This document shows positions 11,601-59,600 of a stretch of DNA of 64,000 nt, one piece after another. Under the pieces are notes generated by a model. It was given only the letters and a program-made list of their open reading frames with translations, was not told where the DNA came from and ran no database searches. The stretch covers positions 536,001 to 600,000 of the forward strand of contig NW_024881842.1 in assembly GCF_019059575.1 (NCBI RefSeq). The letters are read 5' to 3'. Numbering within the stretch: the first letter of the stretch is position 1; every line of letters starts with the position of its first letter. The position numbers and the translations under genes were made by a program. The DNA comes from Amphibalanus amphitrite. Its lineage: Eukaryota > Arthropoda > Thecostraca > Balanomorpha > Balanidae.

Positions 11601-14600
11601 ACGCTACGCTACATTTAAATTACGTTATTTTTAAAATGAGGTTTAAGTTTAACCTTCTGATTAGACCATGATTACTCAAAAAGCTTCATGCAATTTCACG
11701 TCATGGAAATAGTTACGTCTGCCCCAGCCACTGGCATACGACTACGAGCCGACCGGACTTCCGCGGGGCCGTTTCGGAGCTGGAGTGTAGTTTCACAGTG
11801 GGCTCGGCTGGGCCCACACCGGAGCAGCGTCCTGAAGGTACGGCGCCGCCGGCACCGCTACCGGCGATCGATGCACGCCTCCGCCGCCAATGCGGCGCGT
11901 TTGTCGACGGCATCGCGCCGGCCTCGTCGACTGCGACGATCCAACCTTGTCGGCAGCGACGAAGGGACCATGTCGTCTGTGTCGCGATCGTTTGGCGACA
12001 CCGCCCCGCCGCTAAATGGTGCAGCGACACGCTTATCAGATCGACTCTGTTTGAGCAACGCACATTTAGTGCAGCAACGGCCGTTCAGCCGTCCAATGGC
12101 CTCAGCGGCCCCACAGGTCACGTTTCCGGCCCGATTTTATTCGTGTGCTGTGTGACGAATATGACGGTAATGTGTCTCAAAGGACCAGCTAATGTCCTAT
12201 TTGCTTTGCATCCATGCATTACTGCTGTGTGGACATTCACTAACTGGACACAAGGTAGCATCAGCATGGATTTTGCAGCCGCTAAACTGGATCGCAGAGA
12301 CCTGAATAGAACACCACATGAGCCATTGCTGGCGCTGATTTTCAATGCGAGTACGACTATGTTTGGGCGGTTTTGCAGCGGTGAAGTGGCTGATGTCAAT
12401 CGGTGTGCCTGGGGCGTCACCGGAAACGGACCAGACGTCAGTCATGGTGTCATCATTATTAGCCCACCGGGCGTCACGGCTTATTATCACGACAGACATG
12501 CAACCCTGCCGGTCCCCCGGCGGCGGCCCGGCGCGGTGGACGGTGGACTGTGGACGGGGGACGGGGGACGGGGGACGGTGGACGGTGGACGGTGGACGGT
12601 GGACGGTGGATGGTGGACGGTGGACGGTGGACGGTGGACGGTGGACGGTGGACAGTGGACAGTGGACGGTGGACAGTGGACGGTGGACAGTGGGCGGTGG
12701 ACGGTGGACGGTGGACGGTGGACGGTGGACGGTGGACGGTGGACGGTGGACGGTGAACGGTGGACGGTGGACGGTGGACGCTGGACGCTGGACGGGGAAC
12801 GATGGACGGGGGACGGTGGACGGGTGTCGGAGGACGGTGGACGGGTGTCGGAGGACGGTGGACGGTGGACGGTGGACGGTGGGTGTGGGCGGTGGACGGT
12901 GGACGGTGGACGGTGGACGGTGGACGTTGGATGATGGGCCAACACTGACCTTCGATCGACCCAAGCCTGCGAACACAGGTGCTCATCCCACCCTGAATAG
13001 TACCCACTGGTCCACTGAAAGGCCACGTTAGGCGGTCCGGGCTTTTCCTCGCACTATAAATAACTAAGGTAACTTCTGAGTCCGTAATTGAAGGACCTGG
13101 CACTCGTAACTTCTGGGGTCGTAATTGAGGGAGGAGCGCTCTGTTTCTTTGATAGTTTCTATTTTTAGATGATGGTAAAGTTAGCTCTGTTCCCTTTTAA
13201 CTAAAAGCCTGTTGTTTCTATTGTAGGGGATGTTTCATCGATAAGGCATGGCAGAACGCTGAACAAATGACAGCTGGAAATCAAAGACGGTCGTATAAAA
13301 TAGGAAGTGACGTTCGGTTCCACGATGGCCGCTGGTCACAGCTTCCACTCTGGCTAGTTCTGCTTTGACCTATCGTTCGTTTCTGATAAATAACCCATGG
13401 CTTTTGATTACCTAGCTTAGTCACGAAGTTTTTCGAATTAATGGTTATGATTTGTGCTTGCTTAGCACTGAGAGGTAGAACTGTATCTCTTCAGCTGAAT
13501 CACATCCGAATCTCAGCAAAACTGTCGAAGGGGTTTTCTTAAGCAGATGACAGGTGGACGAAGTTCAAATGAATTCCGGCTGACCTCTGATTGACCGATG
13601 ACTCACCGATTGGTCGGGGAGCGGCGGCCAGCCCCCTCTCCCTTCCCACCCGACCAGTCCCATGGGGGGTGATCTGCAGACATACAGACCGACCTCGTAC
13701 CCCGACCGCAACTCAGACTCTCGGAATAGCGCGCCAGCTGATACCACGTTTCAATAGTGATGAGATGACAGAGTGTGTCAGCAAAAGCGCGCCAAAGGTC
13801 GGCAAAAGGGCGCCAGAGGTCGGTGCCTCAGAGCTCAGATCTTGTAAATGTTAGATTGACCACTCACTTTGAAGATAATGAGAGTCATTACAGAGGGATT
13901 GAGCTAGCTCAGTGCCCGACTCCATGGATGAAATATGAGTGTGGGCTCTGGATGAGGTGATGTATCAGGCATTTGGGATTCAACGCGACTCGTCGCTGCG
14001 TCCGAGTCCGAAATATCGTCGGATTTTGGCATGTTTATTAGTTCCTGTGGGATACACCGCAAGCATCTGGCCTGATGCGGCCTCTTTTGATTGCTGGCTT
14101 GTTTGTTGTTATCTGGGCAGATTTCCTCTTGTGCTTACTTCCCACTAGTAGGTAAAAGATGTCGCGTTGTCTCTTACCCAAGTTATGAAGACGTCCAATT
14201 AGTTCGGAAGCCTCATTCGCTAGCTAGTCTGTTCTGCATTTATTCCTCTAAACTTTCAAACCTCTCCGAATGCGCTACCTTTGTCACATTGTTCTCGTAC
14301 TCCCTGAACTCACGCTGTGTGACAGTGTCTCAAATCTGCACCTCTCCTCTCGGCTCTGCCGCAGTGCAGTCAGCCCCACCGGGGAGGGACGGGGCGGTGG
14401 ACTGTGGGGGGGGGGGGGGATGGTGGACTGTGTGTGTGTGGGGGGGGGGGCGGTAGACTGTGTGGGCTGGGGGCGGGGTCGGAGCCACTGAGGTGGACGG
14501 CGGGCTCGCTTACCGGCGATGACCAGGGCCCGTTTAGCGGCACGCTATCAGCTCATTAGCACTGTTCAGTGTTCAGTTGGCTGCTGAGCCCTCCGGCCGC

Positions 14601-29600: not shown

Positions 29601-32600
29601 CCGTTGTCTAGTTGTTTTGAATAGACGACACGCACAACCTTCCCTGCGGTTGTGGTCACCTCGGTGTGCAGGTATTGAAACTCGTGCATCTCCGTTTACT
29701 GAGGGATTTTAACATTTTCCCACTTTGACGTTTTTTTTCTCTCTTTTTTTTTCAGATGCCATCTTGCGACTGATCCATAACGCCAACCAGTCAACTATCG
29801 ACAGCTACAGCCACGAGACTGACGAGGACAGTCAAAACCAGACCAGTGACAACGTGGCGAAGCACGCGCTGCCCACGCTGTTCGGCCAGTTCATGCGCTA
29901 CTTCCAGAGCGAGCTGTCCGATCCGGAGCTGGAGACGGCCGTCACAGAGTTCTTCGACGAACTGTTCGTGGTGACGTACGGACGCGGCGCGCAACTGAAC
30001 GCCACCTTCGCGAGCTGCCTGCGGGAGAAGCGGCTGGACATCCGACCCTTCCGCGACGTGCCGTTCCGGATGAAGGAGAAGCTCCTGCGCACCTTCGGGC
30101 TGGCGAAATTCTACCTGCAGTCGCTGTACGGCGGTCTGGCGGTGCTCAACACCACCACCCACTTCCAGTGCACGGAGTCGTGCTACCAGGCGCTGACGAG
30201 GCTCAGCTACTGCCAGCTCTGCCGAGGCCACAGCCAGGTGCGGCCGTGCAATGAGTTCTGCTTTAACGTGATGCGCGGCTGCATGGCGCCGCTCTCCACA
30301 CTCAACGAGTCGTGGCAGACGTACGTGGAGGTGTTGCGCAAGCTGGCCACGTCCCTGCAGGCCGGCAACAACGTGGAGACCTACCTGCTGAAGCTCTATG
30401 TCAATATCTCGGAGGCGATGTCACTCGTCTTCACCTACCGGGAGGAGGTCGATAGAGAGGTGAGTGGGCAGGTCGCCACGACCGCCCTCTTTCCCCGAGT
30501 GCATGTTGTACTGAATTGGCAAATCGTCAGCTAGGCACACAAATTCATATGGACTCTGCATTGGTGCTGGTAATAATGATGCTGCGTAAGAGCACGGGTA
30601 AACTGAACTCAGAAAGGATGAATTTCTACCGAAATGAAACACATTGTGCTTGACGACATCCAATCGTTTGACTAGCTAAGAAATCCTGAGAGAGATTGCA
30701 ACGCGAAAATATTGGTGAGCAAACAACAGTAAAAATTGTTATGTTCGCTGAAGATTAATTCGGCAATTATTCTTCTTTTAACCATGCTCACCTCTTCTTT
30801 TCGTTCTCACTCAATCTGTGAATCTGAATATCCCGATCCACGGACATCTACCGAACCGTTTCACTAAAACGTCATGAATACGGGATGGATCGTGAAACGA
30901 GACGGCCTGTGGATATGGCAGGCAGAGCGGGCTGTCTCCCGTTCCAACTCTGTCTATTGCCCAGTACGGTACATTGTCTGCACCACTCAGCTGCCGGCGC
31001 GGCCGGCGCGCGCCATTCGTGCCACCATCGTCTCTGAGGGGCGCACTCGACGTCCATTGTTCCGTCGGCGCCGGGCCGCAGTTGGCAGGTCCAATTGAGT
31101 TGGGCGACTCAGCCCACGACGGTACCGACGGCCGCTGGTCACAATGGGCCACCGGCGCGCGGCGGCCCGTCGCTGCCGATCGCGCTATTGTGGCCGGCGG
31201 CCAGCGGGCGCAAACGGCGGAGACGACGGCCATTCACCGTCCGCTGACCCGCGCCCCTGACCTTACCGTCACGTGACCGGCTCGGCTGTGTTTGGAGAGC
31301 ACTCTGACCAGGTCGGCCTTATCCCAAATCGATACGGTGTGGGCTGGCGGCTTCCCTGGGACGCCCACGGGCACATGAGGTGGGCGGAGAGCGGAGGGGA
31401 TCCTTCCATTGAACGCCAGGCGTCAATGAAGTGTCGGGTCCGACACCTGGGTAGACATCGATCCTGAGGCAAATGTGTCAGCACAGGACAGTGAAAATGA
31501 TTAATGGACCGATGTAGTCCAATGCTTGGTAAACCGAACAACATTCGCTGTTGATGCAACACACATCAGCAGGCCATTATAAAAGAAAGCCTGGGGTTGA
31601 ATTAATGGCGACGACATTCTAGCGAAGACGCATTGGGCAGATTCGGATCACCTCCTTTTTACCTAAACCACCAATAAATCCGTTCATTGATAAACTGATC
31701 CACGTATCCCGAGTGGGACGATCTTCGGGCAGACAGCACTCAGCGCGAATGGGACGCTCTCCACTAAAACGACCGCATCAATCCGCTTCCATTCAGGCTC
31801 CAACAGTGTGTTGTGTTCGCCTGATTCAGAAGGTCGACGGCTTGCTGGGTTTGTGAGCGGGGCGAGGACGTCGTCGACCGGTCCGCGCCTTGTCCGCGAG
31901 TCTTTGTGGGACTGCTGGCACGCTTCGACTTGTTTGGAATACCGGGACTGGGCGGGGGCGGATGATGAAAGTCTCTAATGCTCTCTCTAAAACTCTCTAC
32001 AGCTAATGGCTGAAGTCTTAGACACATATTCGATCGCCTTCTTGAGGATAACGTTCCAGATTATCATAAGAAGAGGCCCGTTTGATCACCACGGTAGTTA
32101 CCTTATCAATTCTCGATGCGCTAATTCTCGTCCTATTCTCAAAGTGCATACCTATCCTGGCGCAGTCTTTCGGTGTACTTGAAAACACGTCTCAAAGCTT
32201 TGTACTCTTTCATATTTACGCCTCAACTCCGGATGTCTGTCGCGATGCTTACTATGTTCTCAGACCCACCAGCTAGCAACAGCATCAAAGCAGCTTCATC
32301 ATAGCCCTGTTCCCCGCCGCGCCCTCGCCGCGCCTGGCTGTGGTCCCCGCTGTGATACCCCTGTTTGTGGCGACCTCCGACCCTAGCCGGTGGACCGTCG
32401 TATGTAATAACTCCATTGGGGCCCTGTCCGCCCAGCGGGGGAGGCGCTTCTCCCCTACAACCCGACTGAAACAGCGGGGTACCGGGCAGCTCCAGCTTGT
32501 GAGCCGGGCAGGCTGGCTTCGGTAGAATTCCAGCGTCAAGGGAAGGTGTAGTAGTTAGGTATAACCCATTGAAGGAACTGGCCACTTTGAATCTGCGGTT

Positions 32601-35600
32601 AGGTGCTTCATTGTAGAATTTCTACGATTGCCGATTGGGTACTGGATTATTCGGAAGCCTGTAAATATAAGTTGCTCGTGCATTGGCAAATCTTGAAAAC
32701 GTTTGCTATGGGTTCGGCTTGAAGTCGCTGCATGTAAGAAGCAAGAGGAAATGCTCTCGCGGGCCTCTGGTCCCTCACAGAGGCGTCCTCCGTCTGATTG
32801 TTGCCACCCGGCCACGTTGTTTGTCGGTGCCGCTCGGTGAAAGCTCGCTTCGTCGAACCGAGCGCGTTGCATGCCGCCTGTGCCGGTCATCGATGCACGC
32901 GGCGCGGCGGGTCGGCAGGAATGTACCCCCCTGAGCACGGACAGGCTTCCGGCAGAGCGCGGACGACGGCTGCAGGTGCGCCCCGGGCCCGACGTCTGTC
33001 CGTCGCAGGAGACGACCCCCTCTGAGGAGCCAGAGCCGCCCGACCGGCCTCTGGCCGCCTGTCGGTCCCGTCAGCCACGCGAGACTGACGGATGACGAGG
33101 GAGCCCTTTGAACGCTGCCGGAAAGAAGCTTTGAGGGGTCTGCAGCGTTCGAGACTGTCTGTGATGTAGTGGAGATTTTGATTGAACTGATTGAGACCTC
33201 CTCAGAGATTGCAGTAATGCGCCCTGTGCCAGCTCACTGAACTACATACACCTGTTTTATCCAGCTCTGCACCCGAGAGGCGCTCCGGACCCGTCCCAGC
33301 CGACCGCTCGTATACCGTGCAGGGGCGGAACAGCGGCGTAACACGCACCTCCGTGTCTGCAATCACGCGCAGGCCCGCCCCCTGCACGCACACGGGCCCA
33401 TTACTCGGTACCAGGCGATCACGTGTGGCTCATTACCCCATTTGGTTAACAGGCTCCGTAACGGGCTACCTGTGCGGCCCAGCCGGTGTCTAATCAGCTG
33501 ATCAGCCGCGTCATCGAGTGCGGTTTCCGCTCCGTTACCTACAGACCGCTGCTGGGGAGCTACCATGCAAATGAGCGACGCTTTTAACCCGCGCGGGGCT
33601 GGGGTCTCCAGCCGAACGCGCGGGGCTGGGGGGGTAAATTTTACCCCCCCTGTTATCTCCCGAACTAATGGTCCGATTTGGAAAATTCAAACGCCAATCG
33701 AAAGCTCTCATCACGAACTACTAAAAACATGTACTTAATTTAAAGTTTGAGGTCAAGGTCAAGGTCAGGTCAAGGGTACAAATTGCAAGTTTCTACAGTA
33801 TCGGCCTTGCACCGTAGTTGCCGAAGAATGGAGTCATGGACTGAGACTGTTCGCCCAAAACGTGTTCTTAGGCTACCAAGACAATATTCGTTGCATACAA
33901 TATCATTCAGAGGTCAAGGTCAAGGTCAGGTCAGGTCAGGTCAGGTCACCAAAAAACAAAATATAGAAAAGGGCATGTGCGACACATGTTTTATGGGTCA
34001 TTTTACTCATAGAATTCAATAGGCACACTCAATAAGTGATATGGACCACCTCTGGATGAATTTCAGGTCGAGGTCAGGTCAAGGTCAGGTCAAGTGAGGT
34101 CAAATTTTGAAGTTGGTTGTTAAGGCCTAGAAAGGTGTCTATCTGATGCAGTTTTTCACGGCGAATCGAATGGTGCTATTTTTGTTTCCGTACGAGGTCT
34201 AGAACTTCCAAAAAAGTCATTTTTCAAAAAATTTGTGTGTCGTGACGTCATAAAATTTTGAATAACTCCCACATTTCTGAACCGATTCTTCTAAAATTTG
34301 GTATGTAGGTGCACATAGACCACTTCTCTGACATATATTCCGGTTTTTTCGATAGACTCAAAATTTTGGATTTTATAATGATTTTCCCAAAAAAATCAGT
34401 TTTTTGAAAAAATTTAGGCCAAAATCCAAAATTTTCAAAAAACCGAGATAGCCATTTGATAGACAAAGTAAAATTACGTATAACCTTTTTTGTTACGTCT
34501 TGATTCCTTTACAAATGAAGATGTTAGCGGCGTTTGAACTTTTGCCGTTTTTGAGGCGAAAATGGCGAACATGACGTCACTAAAACGTCAATTTCTCAAA
34601 AATTTCCCGACGGATTTCGCTCAAATTTTCAGGGAACGTGTCAAATTGATGTAAGAAAAGGTACTGAAAGTTTGGCGGCGCTGCGCGCCGCCGTTTTTGA
34701 GATATCGCAAAAATTCGCGAGGGGGGGTAAAATTTACCCCCCAGCCCCGCGCGGGTTAATCAAGTGGCCAGCCCACGCCTCATCTTTTCGAAGTGCCGGC
34801 CGGATGAAGGCGGACTTTTCAAGGCGCCTGTCGTGAATCGTTAGTGGTTAGTCGTTAGTCGCTGTCGTTAATCGTTAGTCGTTAGCCGCTGTCGTTAGAC
34901 GTAAGTCACTAGTCGTCAGCCGTTATGAGCTGAATCCCTAACCCGCTCTTGGTTTATCTCTCGCCCCGCCGGTAAATGACGCAGCCATGGCGCCGCGAAT
35001 GGCGCCACCGCGCCGGGAGTGACGCCGCCGCGCCACTAATTGGCCGCGATAAACTCGACACCAATCAGTCAGATGTCTTTTTCTCCTTTTTTCTCCCCCC
35101 TGACATTCCTGCGCGGGCGGTGGGCGCCGAGGGCATTGCGCATGCGCGGCAGACGGTCAGGTAATTGAGGGACGAATACCGTGGCCACCCCGGACTGAGA
35201 GGGCCGGACCGCCTGTAAAGATGTCAGACTGATGAGCTCCCACCCAAGCGGGAACCCGCCGCTACCCACTGCGCAGCAGGGCTCTGACGGGTGGCCACTC
35301 TGTGCGGAATTCAACCCCGTACACTTAGAAATGAGGAGCGTTTTACAAGCAAATAGCTGAGTCGTCGACAACAGGGGATGGGTCAATTAGCAAAGCAGGT
35401 GTAACGTGATGATTGATGATTAAAATTTCCGCTGCGCCCATGACAAATTATCAGATCGTATGGGCGCTTCATTACAGGAGAATCCAGAGACGCAACCAGC
35501 TGGGGATTGGCATTGCAATTTCGACTTTTGACGATCTAAAATTTGAGCTACTGCGCTGTCGCCAAGGGCTTTGACGATCTCTGTTTGACTCAGCCGCCAG

Positions 35601-38600
35601 CGAACCTGGCCGACACACCGCACCGGTCGGCCGGCCGGGCCGCTCCCTCCCCAGACGGATGGTATCGGCCAGTTTTTACCGCCGCCCGCCGCCGTGGTAA
35701 TGGATTACCCAAAGGTGGCCCGCCCGGCTACAGCTCAGATGAAGCCGTGGCATTTCTCATCGGCTGCGTGCCTCGGATGGTGGCTGAAATTTAAATGAGT
35801 TATTTCAACCGCACTGCGGTACGTCTATGGTGGTTTACAGTCGGAGGCTCGCTGCTGTGGTGATTCGAAGGTGGCGTAAGCGCGCGTTTTTGAGTAAACT
35901 GGAGCATTGCGGGGCTCTTGATATTTATGAAGCGGAAGTTATGTATTCTTACTGCACGCAAATGGAGCTCGGTTACTGCCGAATAAAGGCGCAATGTGTT
36001 GTTTGTCAATGGCCAAACCCTCCACTGAGGTGGCATAAACCGTACGACCACCAACTTAAACGTTTTTTCCTTATGTTGCCGTGTTATGACGTCTCGCCAC
36101 TGAAGCGAGTATAGATTGTAACTGTAGTTAGACTAACTCCAGCTTGTACCCAATGCAGTGCAACGGCGTCATAACAGAGCTCCGGCGGGCCCGCAGCTAC
36201 ACAAAAAGTCCCTGACAGATAGCCAGGGAGCCTTATTTGCCTAACAATATTTTGTTTGCAGGCCCAGCTTTGACCAATCTGGAAATAAACTACCGTCGAC
36301 TTTGCACGCTACGTACCTAACTCATGGGCCTTGTATCGCGCGGCCGATCACGGCAGCTGCAGTGGGGGCTTATGCAGTCCGCACAGACGCTGAAACCGTC
36401 CGCGACTGCGACAGAAAACTCCGTTAAGCTGCTGTCGGAAACGTGTCTGCTTCAAATAGCATCGTCTAGCGTTTCGGGCGTTTTTTCTTGTTCGGCGTCG
36501 TCGTTTTGTCCTTCTGTCCGGCAGCCGGTAGCGCAATCGTCGCCGCATCAGCAGCCAGGAGCTGGATTAGTATTAACGTCAATCATTACCGGAATACTGC
36601 TGGAGGATAATGCTGGTTCGCAATGCACAAGTGTGACGCTGGTTTACCCGGATCTTAATTTGTTATTTTAAGGTGAATGTGATTCACCTGTGTCTGAAAG
36701 TTGGTGGCATTCTTAGGGGTAGCAGATTTAGGTGTTGTTTTTGTTCGAAGAAATCATGCAATAACCTCCCGTACCCGACTTATGAAGTCAACAATGAATT
36801 AAATAGCAGGGCATTATGCTCGCATGCTCATTTAACTTTTGGCTGATTCTGAGATCATGTTGATTGTGCGGATGAAAGGACTTTCGGCGGTGAAAACTTT
36901 GACTCCAACATGGATTAGTTTCAACGTTGTTCAGAGTTCAGACTTTTATGCTTGGTGCAGTCACTTCTATTGCCAAACTTTGATGTTTGTAGTGCGTGAA
37001 AGTTTTCTGTAGGAGTCTATTAGGGATTGCATTCTGAGTAACTCCACTTTTCTTACCACCAATTTCGCGCGACTCTTAACCCTCGCCCTGGCAGGGGGGG
37101 GGGGGTCGATGCGACCCCCCCTAAGGTTTTTCGAAGATAGCGTAAAAACGGCGGCGCGCAGCGCCGCCAAATTTTGCACAGCCTATGGGGCAACCTTTTT
37201 ACATATGACCTGAAAATTTCAGGTCCGGGTGACCTTGGGTCAGGTCACCAGGTCAGAAAAACCGGTACAAGGTCATGGTCAAATTTCAATTTTCTTCTTG
37301 CACCTGTCCAACTCACAGTTTTCGACTGATTTCCTTCAAACTTTCAGGATGTGCTAAGTTCACCGAGTTGTATAACATATAGTCCGGCTTTTTTGAGGTC
37401 ACTGACCTGAGGTCAGTTAGAGGTCATTACGTCGTAATGTTAAGCCTATGGGAAAATACTAAATTCGGAAAATACTGGAGATATCCGCTTCGTTCTATTA
37501 CTTTTGTGCTTTGAAACCACGGTACTTAACAGCAGGTCACTTGGTGCTTCTTTGTTTGGAGTACTTATCCATGGGTCAGGTCAAATGAGGTCAACTGAGG
37601 TCAAATGACGTTTTTGCCAATAACTTGGCACATAATGACGCTAGAGCTTAAAAAATGGTATCATTGTGTTCCTGGTGATCAGCCGAATCGAATGATATGC
37701 GATATGATACAATTTGGTTAACTTGAACTCAATTTATTAATTTAAGTTTACTTAAAATTTAAGAAAAACTTTAAGTACACTTAAGCAAGCTAAAAAGTAT
37801 ATCATTCGACGCGCCTTGACGTGCTGAGTTCACTGGTGCTTTTCTTTTTGCTCTATCTTAATTAGATCAAAAGTTATAAGTGAAAAACTTTTGACCTGTT
37901 TTTAGCGAAATTTTTACATTTATACCCCCCAAAACCCCCCTAAATATTGACCTAGAGCAACCAAATTTGCACAGGGGCGAGAACTCCAGGGGGCCCACCA
38001 ACCTACCAAATTTGGTGTTTCTAGGTGCCATAGGAGCCAATCGCGAGGGGGGGGGGTCGCATCGACCCCCCCCCCCCCTGCCAGGCCGTGTTATGAAAAA
38101 TGCCCTGCCAGGGCGAGGGTTAAAGTCAACAGATCAAACAGCAAAGCCAGCCTCGGCGAAACTCGGAGAGCGCACAATACCTGCTCCGTCCCCAAACTTC
38201 CGGCCCGTGTCCATTTACCGGACTAATCCATCACACGGGGGATCGTCTGTAGCCGGCTCCAATCCGGGATACGGCGGCCGACCCGCCGGGCGTGTAATAA
38301 GCCGCATTGTCGGGTCTGTCCTGCACCCCTTGGCCGCTCGGGCGCCGCGCGTCCACGCGTGACGCTGAAAACACTCCGGAATGCGGCGGGCGGGGCGATT
38401 GAGAGAGCCGGCAGCATTCCGCTGCAGGGTGTCATTAATTAATGTGTTTACTGCTCGGGAGAGAGGAAGATAGAGGGAGAGAAGGGAGCGGCGCTATCAG
38501 CTCATGGAAGGGCGTGCAGGCAGCGGTGTGACGAGAGCGGGGAGGCCACGGGGCGTGACTTGTCCAGAGGGTAAAATGTCTGGTGGCTGGAGCACAGAGA

Positions 38601-41600
38601 AATTGTGAGGTTAGAGAAGCGACTTCTGCTGGAAACAACGATAGGCACTGTGGTGGGTTCAGCGTGATGACCAAGGTTCTGCAATGGAACAGCCGATGAA
38701 ATTTAACTTCGCTAGCTACGACAAGAAATGTGCAATATCATGCAACAACTGCGAGAGCTTTGCAGTGGAAACGTTTCATGTAGCAGCTATTTCATCATCC
38801 TTCTCCTTTATGCCTCAATGTTTGTCGTTTCGTCGGCCTTGGAAACGAATCACAGTTTCTTCACATTATCACCATGGTCCTCTTAGCAACAGACCTAAAC
38901 CATCACATTCAGTATGTTGATTGGCTTCTCGCCCGGCCTCTGGGACCGCCGACAATGCTGTTCCTCCGTCCATATCGCATTGTCGGTGTCGCTCTCAAAG
39001 GTAGCCGCCCGACAACAACATGGAGTTGTTCTGGTAACGCCCTGTCGGACAGGGCCGGAATTCATCAATGATGCCTGTCGGACGGTACCGGACCCGACAG
39101 TGACCCTGTCGGACAGTCACAGACCCTGGCGACTCTTGTCGGACACTACCCGCCGGAGCCAGCCACCAGCGGTCGCGCGCCACCCATCAGCCATTCTCAG
39201 CTCACCGAGCAGTGAATTAGCATAAGTCGATTGCTCACCCCTGTGTATATTGCCGCGACTACCCGGGCCGACCGACAGTTGACTGTTCCATCGCTGCCGC
39301 CCGGCTGCACCTTTTCCGGTAGGTCTGCAATGCGGCGGGTGCCTGCCTGGGACCGGCTACACCCACCCTTCGGCCGCCCACTCCTTTCCCCATCGGTCTG
39401 ACCGAGAGGGAGGTGGAGGGGGGGGGGGGAGGGGCAGCGCGTGGTCGGCCTGACGTGCCGGTCCCGGTAGTTATCACGTCATAACAGCGTGGTTTAGTAC
39501 CGGCCGGCTGATATGAGCCGCCCGACCGACCGTCCGCAGTGGTGGGGCTCATGGAACACCGACGGCGGACGCTGAAACTACACGGCGGTACGGCCGCTGA
39601 ACGGCAGCGGTACGGCTGGGTACCACCGTGCCCTGGGTACGCCATGCTACCCCGCCCCGCCCTCAGACAGAGGGGAGAGTGCCGGACAGAGCGGTGGGAG
39701 GAGACGAGGTGTGCGATTTCAGCGCACTCTGTGTTGTGCGTCCGTAGCGGCTGGAGGGACAGCACGGCGCAGCTGTTCGGGCGCCGGATCGGAACAGCTG
39801 CTCCGGTGGTATGTCCATTGTTCCGGACTGAACCGGTTTCGGTAGGGTCCGACCCCAGACATACCCCCAGATGATGATTGATGACTATATTTGATGTTGG
39901 AGCAGACTGCAGCTGCCTTTGACCCTGGCGGCTCCCGATGGCTATCTTTTTCAGTTCTCCAAATTCCAGTCGCATTCATAGTTACATCCCCGCAGTGAAC
40001 ACTGAGAGACTGGCTCTCTTTAAGGTCTCCTGGCTAAAATCCGGGCTGCTACAACCTTTACAACGAACGTCAGCTGGTTCCAGTCATCTATCGTCCACCG
40101 TCTACCGTCCACCGTCCACCGTCCACCATCCACTATCCACCGTCCACATTCCACCCCTTACCCACCCCGTCAACCAAGCTGGCACAAAGTCCGAGTGGTG
40201 CCCCAGCGCCCGGAAAGCACACTGCAACTCCCACCCGGCCATTAGCGCCGTCAGAAAACAGACACTACACCAAGCGCGCCTCTTTGATCTGTTCGGCCCG
40301 AGCTGAGCTGTGGCGGCCGACCCGGCCGACGGTGCTGGCGCAGCTCGACGGGGGGGGGGGGAGGGGGAGAAACACAGGAGGTGGGGCGAGGGAGGGCTGT
40401 CTGATGTCTGCTGTCTGCTGCGTTCTGTCTGCTGTCTGGTGTCTGATGTGTGTCTGCTGTCCTTTCGCCGTTGCTGTTCGAGTGGAAAACACGTGCTTGT
40501 CTGGCGTTTAGAAGAAACGTTGTCTCTTTCCATTGCCTTGCAGTGAATCGGCACTGTGAAAGCTCACAACAGTGCTCTCCGTGACCCCTTCATTTGAGCA
40601 ATGAGGAATGAGCATATGTCATGACTGATGACGTCTGAGCATAGGCGATGCGATTTCCTGCTATCTATTCGAGTGTTGTTACTTGTTACACATGTATTAC
40701 ATATGCCATCTTCGCGCATAGGGAAGTTATGAACCATAAGTAAGCATTAGGCTTCTGCCGTCTTGAAGCCGCAGTCCACCTTTACCTGCGCCACCTTGTG
40801 GCTTTGCTTACCACTTTCTGTTTCATGCAGCACTGAAGAGCATTGTAATTTGTAACGCTCTTGTAGTAAATATTTGGTAAGAGCGTGTAATTTTTGTAGT
40901 TTCTGTTTCATATCGCCAAACTCCCCTTGCATAGTTTTGCGCGGACTGTAAATGCCCAACATTGCCAAGGTACCTCTGTAGTCTGTAGTTGCCGAGCTCG
41001 TACGAATCTAGCCCTGTTTAACTCATCGTCGTGCCGCTGATTATCCCTCCCAGATTCCGGCGGCAGATAATCCCTTTATTCCCTGTGCTGTGGACCCGAT
41101 ACAGGCCTTCAGCTATCTGTCCACACGGCGGTGTCAGCACATTGCACAGTTGCACACGTAGTGCAAGTCACGCAGGCGTGCCAGTCCGCGGACCGTGTCA
41201 GATGAGCCTCGTGGGCCGTGACACCGGCAACCAACAGCGCATTGACACACGGATGACAAGGATGACACACGCTGGTGACACCCAGGTGAATGTCGCCCAG
41301 TGGAGCTTAATGGCACCGTGACACGCACGCCTGCGCTGTGAACATTGCAGCGTGAGATTGGTGGCCTTTGGGGGCTCGCGCTATGGCCTCGTTCGGAACA
41401 TTACGGGACATGCAGCGTCATTGCAATGTGCGATGTGGAGCAGGATGTACCCAGTGATGAGGTAATGAGTTATTGGGAAGTGGGCTTCGTGCGTTAATGC
41501 CTGCACTTCATCTGCTTTCAAGCAGATTGTGCGATGCTAGATATTGATTAACCTTTCTATGGATAGATAATCATATAGGTTAATCGAATTTCTTTGTCGT

Positions 41601-56600: not shown

Positions 56601-59600
56601 GCAAAAATATATTATTTAAATGAAAAGTTAAGCGGGGTATTCAATCCCCCACGCTGGAAATGGCTGCTTTATGGATGTAAATGTTTCTTAGGATACTTGG
56701 CTTTGTTTACAAAGTAGGTACATCTACTTTGTAAACAAATTAGGTGTACCTTACCAGTGTAGAAACTAGATTTAATTATGACGTACTGACCATGAACGTC
56801 TTTATCAAATACAGAGGCGCACCGTCAACTTTGCTAAATGAGGAAAAATGCCTGCCCACGGGATATGGCCCGTGCCGTTTACCATTGCACTATGCCCATA
56901 TCAATGTATACCTAAATCACTGCATCGGTCCCGTCAGTCAGTTCCATGTTAGCTCTCCATTCAGCGAGCGCCCTCGACATGCCTCCCTGGCATGCGCGAC
57001 CGAAAACGTCTCATGACGCCCAGCGCACACATTCCTGGGACCAAACGGACCTTTCGCCAGCGTCGGCGGTCGCACAACTGTGCGTTTTGACCGCCAAACA
57101 CCGTCTAATCTGGCCTAATGTGACGGTGCCGAGCCGCCTGGCGGGCGGCAGTGGGGGCGTAACATGCGAACCGGGCCCACTCACGGCACAGACGGCTGAC
57201 TGTGGCCGGCAGTGAGCGTGCGAACCGAACCCGTGGGAGGCGAGCCTGTGCTTCGCAGAAACGGAACAGTGCATGTTTGTTGTGGGAGGCGGTGTTGAAG
57301 CTAGTTCGTGTGCGTTGGAGACTTCGTGGGGCAATATCAACGCCCATACGAGACACACAAGGATATAGTATTTATGAAAGGATTATCAACCGCAATGGCC
57401 AATAAAGTCATATATAGGGATACCACCAAGGCCAGAACAGGCCTCCATGTGGATACCGATTGTTCGGTGGTTCTATCTAATGCACATGAACAACCAGCTC
57501 GGAGTAGCAGCACATAGCATATGCATTGGATCAGATGAATGACGGCTCCTTATGATACCGGCATTGCTCCATTCCAGGCTGCCGAAGGCTGTTCTGTGGT
57601 GATTCACTGCCCAGTGGCGCACGATAAATTAGTGGTGTTGATGATATCGAGAAGTTTGTGTCGAGAATCGCAGCAATACGGGTATTATATGGCAAGCGGT
57701 TCCGAAGCTATCATGTCGAAAGTTCCGTATATTTCTGTGCTGATGGGTATGGGAATGATATCGAGTCACTGATGACATCGAGATTTATATCACTGGCAAC
57801 GCCCGTCGTCCAACACAATGTGTTTCATTGCATTATATGACCAAAAATTAGATGAAAAATTGTTTCTATAAGCCGAGGGTGTTTTTAGAAGCATGCATCC
57901 ATGCAACGTAGAAAGCGCGTTTCGTATTTTAGGCCGAGTGCCACGTCTGTGTTTTGGTCGTCTGGAATGTGTGACCGTTTTCGAAATGAACGATCCGTTT
58001 TGTCACCCCACGACATCCCCCTGCCCTTTCCGATCCTGCATGCCATTTCTGAGCCCGTACATATTTGTCCCATGGAAGTTGGGTCATTACATTTCTTCGG
58101 ACTGGAAGTATTGCTGCTTCTATCCTGGGGACGACAGCCTCCGAAATGGTTTAGGCGATCGCCAACTTTGTCGATCAGGCAAAGTTTGCCGCGGATGTAC
58201 GGATTTAGGGCCGGTAGGTGGGCTGCCGATCCAATTCTGCCGGTCATCAGACGCTGAGCCATGCATGTTTAATGGTCGGCGACACTGCCCAGAATCGGCA
58301 GACCGGCTGCAACAGCGACTCATGTTGTTGGAAGGAGAAGCAGAACTTCAGTGCATGTCATGCCGGGAGACCGCGCTCTATTTTAAAGGTTGTTAAACAA
58401 GTGCATTGAACGTTCCTTTGGGGGGAATTAAAATTCCACTACCTCGGCCTCCGCGGCGGAGGCCATGTTGTCACTGAGTTGTAGCTCGATGGTGCTAGTT
58501 TTGTCCCTTCATTTGTATGTAGCCTGCATGTTATCTGACGTCTCGCCGAGGCCACCGTGCAGCCAAATACCCTTCATTTTCCGCAAATATACGTAGATGA
58601 GGGAGCGTGCTTTTGTGATGGTTAATGGCCTGTCCTCCCTCGACCTAATGGCCGTGTTCATAAACACCGTCATTATAGTTCGTTTTTCTTAAGTTTGCCC
58701 CTCACTGTAAACGTCTCTTTGAACACAGCACGAGAATTGCTAGCTGAATTACTGAGAAAACTGGTTAGCGCACATTGTATTGTAGATGTGAATAATATTT
58801 TCAAAAATAAGTTTTGAACACCGACGATTTAGCGTTATGTTAAGCGCCGTGCAATTTATTTATTAGTTCAGACATAATTCCTGAGAAGTCGTCTATCCCT
58901 GTGGGGCTGTAGGTATTGCTAAATATGAGCTACGAGTCTGTGAAATAGTAAATAAATTTGATGAAATTGATCGTCTGTGAAATCTGGTCAAATCAGTGTG
59001 CGCCAACCAGTTTTCTCAGTAATTCAGCTAGCAATTCTCGTGCTGTGTTCAAAGAGACGTTTACAGTGAGGGGCAAACTTAAGAAAAACGAACTATACCT
59101 CTGTTTTGTATGCATACCCGGACTGGTGTTTTAGCTCGTTCCAGCCTGTACTCAGTGGCAGCTCACTGAAAGCCCGGGCCGATCCTTAACCGCAACAGCC
59201 GTGCCATCGTGGGACGGAACGAGGTGCCAAGCTGTTCGTTTGCATTGATGCTCTGCATTTCTGGATTCCAATGCGACTACCTGAACACACTACTAGGTTT
59301 TAATCCCGATCTCACATTTGAGCACGGCTGTGATTCAGATACCGAAATTAATGGAGGTTACAGCTCAAGCCTCCGTTCTGTGTGTAGGTACTGTAGGTAT
59401 CCGATTCCGACCCACACCGGCGCCTACTAATAGCTCACTTCCCTCTCACTCTTCCCTCCTCCCCCACTCTCCCCACTCTGACTAACACCCCACTCTCCAC
59501 CGCAGGGCTCCAACGACAAGCTGGCCACCATGCCTCCCGTGGACTCCTACGGCTGGGGTGACCCCATCTACGGCGACATGGGCAGCGGCTACGGCTCTGG

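Follow-up and report, generated by a model that had tools for sequence, protein, structure and literature searches.

The closest described counterpart of the two elements considered here, E1 and E2, which lie within a 64,000-nucleotide stretch of the Amphibalanus amphitrite genome (RefSeq assembly GCF_019059575.1, contig NW_024881842.1, here C345, positions 536001-600000; hereafter the window), is the piggyBac transposon of Trichoplusia ni (Ifp2). In the T. ni complex the transposase core holds the tip (~16 bp) and, at one end, the palindrome is bound as a bent duplex by two zinc-binding cysteine-rich domains (CRDs), the CRD dimer sitting on the left-end palindrome, whose center is near bp 25 (PMC7351741). 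As the ends are printed, this palindrome occupies left-end bp 17-33 and a second copy of the tip lies 27 bp in at the right end (PMC10730379, PMC7351741). The right end has been modelled as binding a second dimer; transposition drops by about half when 5 bp are inserted there or when its second repeat is randomised, and the asymmetry of the two ends has been called puzzling in print (PMC7351741). The piggyBat element of Myotis lucifugus likewise forms a complex of two transposase dimers and carries repeated units of tip motif plus palindrome at one end, with the units 44 bp apart and three of them at the left end, and has no such palindrome at the right end (PMC11707139, PMC13405395). Inverted repeats that lie subterminally and can form hairpins are commonly described in piggyBac-like elements and are reported at both ends of the human MER75, MER85, and Looper elements (PMC12324416), which, together with the mPok1 and mPok2 miniature inverted-repeat transposable elements (MITEs) of Daphnia Pokey, belong to the same superfamily and are compared here by description (PMC3315735, PMC12324416). 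Another set of TTAA MITEs, the coral CMITE families I to VI, combines differing tips with a better conserved interior and can be arranged in tandem, though these elements are of ~100 bp and their published description, on which our comparison is based, gives no long/short asymmetry in the part available (PMC2872659).

E1 and E2 are MITEs: they are non-coding, they have shared tips, and they occur in many homogeneous copies. Each is bounded by TTAA and has perfectly inverted tips of 17 bp (21 bp with the TTAA), CCCGCGCGGGGCTGGGG in E1 and CCCTCGCCCTGGCAGGG in E2, so that the TTAA flanks, CCC-starting ends, and differing terminal sequences described in the first-pass annotation are all present. 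Superfamily tips have been defined as ~12-19 bp with a CC[C/T]T-type start (PMC2872659); E2 begins CCCT, and E1 begins CCCG, which fits the CCC but not the fourth letter. The relatedness of the two elements, also proposed at that stage, is seen where the right end of E1 and the left end of E2 align over 129 bp at 69% identity, including a 28-bp identical block around a 19-bp GC palindrome that is the same in both and reverse-complemented in E2, and since these two ends correspond, so do the long ends opposite them. The short end reads tip then palindrome, and the long end reads tip, spacer, second tip, and palindrome (Table 1; bp 1 is the first C following TTAA); the partial tip duplicate noted on one side of each element thus lies at the E1 left and the E2 right.

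Table 1. Features of E1 and E2 in window coordinates.
Feature	Position	Strand	Remark
Element E1, TTAA to TTAA	33584..34759	+	1176 bp including both TTAA; long end left
E1 long end, outer tip	33588..33604	+	17 bp
E1 long end, second tip copy	33617..33631	+	offset 27 bp, run of 15
E1 long-end palindrome	33628..33650	+	dyad at bp 52
E1 AGGTCA arrays	33750..34102	+	16 sites, all + strand
E1 inner GC palindrome	34674..34692	+	19 bp, center of 28-bp block identical to E2
E1 short-end palindrome	34722..34742	-	dyad at bp 24
E1 short end, tip	34739..34755	-	17 bp
Element E2, TTAA to TTAA	37076..38123	-	1048 bp; long end right (reversed relative to E1)
E2 short end, tip	37080..37096	+	17 bp
E2 short-end palindrome	37099..37121	+	dyad at bp 31
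E2 inner GC palindrome	37150..37168	-	19 bp
E2 AGGTCA sites	37206..37953	.	10 on +, 5 on -
E2 long-end palindrome	38047..38075	-	dyad at bp 59
E2 long end, second tip copy	38076..38085	-	offset 27 bp, run of 10
E2 long end, outer tip	38103..38119	-	17 bp

Asymmetric ends with a subterminal palindrome and a second tip copy, of the T. ni type and not that of piggyBat, are therefore present in both elements. As in T. ni piggyBac, the target is TTAA, the tips start with CCC, the short end is a tip plus a palindrome, and the long end repeats the tip 27 bp in before its palindrome; the palindrome form GT-N7-AC is common to T. ni piggyBac, E1, E2, and three related families described below (E3, E6, and E10). 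In contrast to T. ni piggyBac, the elements here are non-coding and ~0.9-1.2 kb long, the tip letters after CCC are unrelated, the palindromes have G-run/C-run arms of variable length and in some families (E4, E5, E7, and E11) other core lengths, some families have a second GC palindrome, and AGGTCA arrays lie inside. The first-pass annotation did not recognise the pair as a described piggyBac subgroup, a view that is not supported, since the plan of the ends was already known from T. ni piggyBac (PMC7351741), as were TTAA MITEs whose interior is better conserved than their diverged tips, from corals (PMC2872659). Both TTAA MITEs and asymmetric piggyBac ends have been described before. In the open-access literature we did not find many families of the same layout within one genome with coordinated change of tip and palindrome.

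Within the window, a scan of 3629 TTAA pairs gave inverted tips at 16/16 in three pairs, namely E1, E2, and 58689-59082, and no TTAA pair reached 13/16 or better in 20 Markov shuffles. The pattern TTAACCC..GGGGGT-N7-ACCCCC has two matches in the window against 0.00 expected. A G-run/C-run hairpin just inside each end, as originally reported, is borne out by folding, in which all four ends do better than dinucleotide shuffles (z = -6.7, -2.8, -2.9, and -3.8). Of 5000 shuffles, none reached the second-tip run of 15 seen in E1 and 112 reached the 10 seen in E2, so that on its own the second tip of E2 is weak evidence. No stop-to-stop frame of at least 100 codons lies wholly within E1 or E2, and the two frames overlapping them have no Pfam match. 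The third pair, 58689-59082, is contained in an element at 58674-59097 with inverted arms of 108 bp at 97% identity, which is not of the TTAA kind because the arms run past the internal TTAA.

Further copies with TTAA on both sides were found by searching the host assembly (807.55 Mb in 2644 contigs), and the pair is not unique. Among the best 40 of 3055 candidates scored for E1 there are at least 39 full-length places at 97-100% identity, including the window copy, and one truncated place, a lower bound given the number of candidates scored; for E2, the best 40 of 2780 candidates yield at least 40 full or near-full places at 97-100%. TTAA flanks both sides of all 28 fetched E1 copies (window copy included), which represent 27 distinct sites because L055 and L062 share their flanks and may be alternative versions of a single site. 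The 27-bp tip offset is kept in 28/28, and 26/28 match a strict two-ended pattern, with the remaining two differing in one spacer letter. Median pairwise divergence among those 26 copies is 0.85%, in a sample biased toward young copies because the best-scoring places were taken. Older copies exist, as seen from an E2 copy on contig C6 with 87.9% identity over its first 199 bases. Evidence of insertion at TTAA comes from one locus (L060), where E1 has split an E2 copy with 95.9% identity to the window E2 and the E2 parts continue on both sides of TTAA-E1-TTAA; the window E2 reads TCAA at this point and is thus an uninterrupted relative of that target, one letter off an exact empty site. Contig C347 was considered as a haplotype partner of the window and ruled out, as its flanks differ.

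Exact TTAA-plus-tip sequences number 4238 (2125 + 2113) for E1 and 3051 (1522 + 1529) for E2 genome-wide, with no match to the reversed-pattern control in either case, and TTAA precedes 4238 of the 4713 (2356 + 2357) occurrences of the E1 tip counted regardless of TTAA. A pattern for short ends in general (TTAACCC[GT]CGC, followed by a variable part, a G-run, the core, and a C-run) matches 15224 times in the forward direction and never in the control; in its reverse count of 45207 a single end can appear as many as four times, from which ~30000 such ends are estimated genome-wide, with matches standing for ends, a subset of which was checked as elements. The idea that the features are due to chance, or are mere slipped G-runs, would find some encouragement in the length of the G-run, which differs between copies as slippage would give, and it is refuted by these genome counts, thousands of exact TTAA-tips versus zero in controls, as well as by the shuffle controls and by cores that pair; we regard its probability as negligible.

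Eleven families on this plan (E1-E11) were recognised, and their tip letters differ from family to family. They come from a contiguous 264 kb (C345:336001-600000, that is, 200 kb plus the window) and from one locus elsewhere (L040): E1, E2, and E4-E11 from a TTAA-pair scan and a listing of TTAACC[CT] sites, and E3 from two copies at L040, with one further end at C345:484124. The scan itself gave 156 matches, mostly pairings inside other repeats, and none in three Markov controls. E10 is known from one end only, and a decayed single end at C345:514099 was left out of the count. There are probably more families in the genome than these 11, and those described here may already be catalogued in repeat databases.

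Among 29 offsets tried, the second tip matches best at 27 in seven of the 11 families (E1, E2, E3, E4, E5, E7, and E11), at 26 in E6 and E10, at 28 in E9, and at 29 in E8; the same measure applied to the T. ni piggyBac right end as printed gives 27 (PMC10730379, PMC7351741). Both ends could be read in ten families. In E1-E5 the inner copy agrees equally well with the short tip and with the outer long tip, and in the others it is closer to the short tip (matches of 12: E6, 10 v 8; E7, 12 v 10; E8, 11 v 10; E9, 12 v 7; E11, 11 v 10), so that in 10/10 it never matches the short tip worse, and this tracking is as expected of a working site. It bears on the suggestion that the second tip is a functionless leftover of a nested or tandem insertion or of a one-off duplication, with the long/short asymmetry an accident of descent. 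TTAA elements do occur end to end sharing a single TTAA (E1 with E3 at L040, and two E1 copies at L057), by which partial copies beside a tip can arise, and the families share ancestry; against this, an offset of 26-29 is found in 11 families with unrelated spacers and of 27 in T. ni piggyBac, and the inner copy follows the short tip equally or better in every readable family, and we consider a leftover unlikely.

The palindrome cores, which were delimited by eye, change in a compensating way, with letters varying and outer pairing kept: 19 of 22 outer core positions pair over all 11 families, while re-pairings average 10.7 and only 4 of 10000 reach 19. A second GC palindrome near the short end is present in five of ten readable families (E1, E2, E4, E7, and E8), with one compensating outer-pair change that separates E1, E2, and E7 from E4 and E8. 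The first-pass suggestion that the hairpins are functional parts of the termini holds in that the palindromes are kept and their outer cores pair across the families; the hairpin itself is not needed, since in the known structures two zinc-binding domains bind the palindrome as a duplex. A palindrome could alternatively act as an extruded, single-stranded hairpin or cruciform, for example as a recognition or replication structure, instead of a duplex CRD site. The folding of all four ends agrees with this, a hairpin function would also keep core pairing despite letter change, and hairpin and cruciform forms of such repeats have been discussed (PMC12324416). The comparable piggyBac palindrome is however held as a bent duplex by the CRD dimer (PMC7351741), and a duplex site accounts for the narrow range of length to which the center letters keep; we consider extrusion unlikely as well.

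Taken together, we consider it likely that E1 and E2 are non-autonomous MITEs of the piggyBac superfamily mobilised in trans, in which, by analogy with T. ni piggyBac, the palindrome is a CRD-dimer site and the inner tip a second-dimer site; the piggyBac-type assignment of the first-pass annotation is supported by the TTAA flanks, the CCC tips, and the T. ni-type ends. In this proposal piggyBac-type transposases would move E1 and E2 by cut and paste at TTAA, a transposase CRD dimer would bind the palindrome much as in the published structures, a second dimer would bind the inner tip, and the hairpin would represent a symmetric binding site on duplex DNA. The spacing between tip and second tip would be kept because the complex is phased, and tip bp 8-16 together with the palindrome core would form a family-specific address read by different transposases. 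The anatomy, with its kept spacing, changeable letters, and symmetric palindrome, fits the T. ni two-dimer model, from which we infer binding and transposition.

Several observations weigh against this proposal. The palindromes are broken in E8 and E9, and when only the outermost core position is considered, pairing does not reach significance (1533 of 10000 re-pairings). In 26 E1 copies the long end has an outer G-run of 7-13 and the short end one of 6-10, and because this length varies, so does the distance from palindrome to tip; the long-minus-short dyad shift ranges over 27-32 and is 28 in 8/26. A fixed palindrome position was accordingly rejected, since the position moves with G-run length among E1 copies, and that E1, E2, and piggyBac all show a dyad shift of 28 bp is partly coincidence. 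The short-end dyad of E2, at bp 31, lies ~6 bp further in than that of piggyBac (near 25). The families were chosen by eye among TTAACC[CT] sites for G-runs and palindromes, with sites lacking these uncounted, and their shared ancestry means that the agreement in spacing is not 11 independent events. Finally, an autonomous element bearing E1 or E2 tips was not found; ends were read at three of the 116 transposase loci, and the tips there are CCCATTAGTGCCCA at C8 (both ends) and C53 (one end) and CCCATTAACGC at C1201 (one end), all unlike the CCC[GT]CGC tips of the group.

These loci are the host's 116 matches to PF13843, the piggyBac transposase family, many with open frames of more than 550 codons; 14 control genomes gave none, and the presence of these matches speaks for the proposal. 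That the loci read carry other tips, and that a coding partner bearing the tips of E1 or E2 did not turn up, would also be expected if the elements were moved by some other, non-piggyBac enzyme that targets TTAA. Three independent features (TTAA, CCC tips, and T. ni-type asymmetric ends) fit piggyBac instead, TTAA duplications are stated to have been known only from the piggyBac/TTAA MITE superfamily (PMC2872659), and any end was read at only three of the 116 matches, and so we regard a different enzyme as very improbable. Two candidates for a partner were rejected. An E2 tip on C6, 2.1 kb from a transposase fragment, merely starts the old E2 copy mentioned above, and the extra 3 kb of E6a (3895 bp) holds a 445-codon frame that by eye reads as reverse-transcriptase-like. 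Separately, C8 31872-34552 (L086 and L087) is a probable autonomous piggyBac with a 604-codon frame, the tips given above, and TTAA on both sides, and it seems to be placed inside AGGTCA-rich sequence resembling the interior of these MITEs.

The group may represent a natural radiation of piggyBac end addresses, in which one mechanical layout has been retained and the letters changed coordinately at three tip copies and two palindromes, an idea that we put forward tentatively. If it is true, this animal has, or once had, a corresponding set of transposases whose specificities are mutually exclusive, and the long/short asymmetry and ~27-bp phasing are an old, selected property of this branch of the superfamily. 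Structural work in the accounts available covers T. ni piggyBac and piggyBat, and families with the same spacing and different letters are a ready comparative data set, one that suggests conservation of the phased second tip and of the symmetric palindrome, with the changeable address residing in tip bp 8-16 and the palindrome core. Should cognate transposases pair with the end families, mutually exclusive piggyBac systems for genome engineering would become possible.

Beyond this genome, a loose form of the end pattern matches 17 viral contigs and 18 genome contigs in prokaryote and viral collections, and an inverted TTAA mate was found in none of the 35 (best 10/16; four, L002, L015, L024, and L033, are without a testable TTAA). 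An exact scan of the viral contigs gave two matches to the E1 17-mer and none to the 28-bp block or the E2 TTAA-tip.

The interior of the elements is rich in AGGTCA, which we take to be a nuclear-receptor half-site, at 13-19 per kb in 12 of 13 element copies of the E1-E11 set versus 1.05 per kb outside listed elements; E6a, which carries a nested insert, has 5.1 per kb. A search of the open-access literature for work joining AGGTCA and piggyBac found nothing.

Elsewhere on the contig there is a second set of TTAA-bounded inverted repeats with tips AGG...CCACCT or similar, and not CCC, at C345:346281-346968, 384118-384603, 425037-426114, 435068-435542, 474542-475051, and 493570-494660, which represents either a further TTAA family or elements in which the tip just happens to begin beside TTAA. 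An array with a period of ~286 bp occupies C345:436686-442455, and its TTAA-containing units pair in inverted orientation. The window itself contains a (CGGTGGA)n array of 57 copies at 12534-12931; the complementary unit forms a shorter array at 40092-40155, at a distance of 27 kb. It also contains an open frame at 29713-30531 that matches the Pfam Glypican family (E = 6.3e-48).

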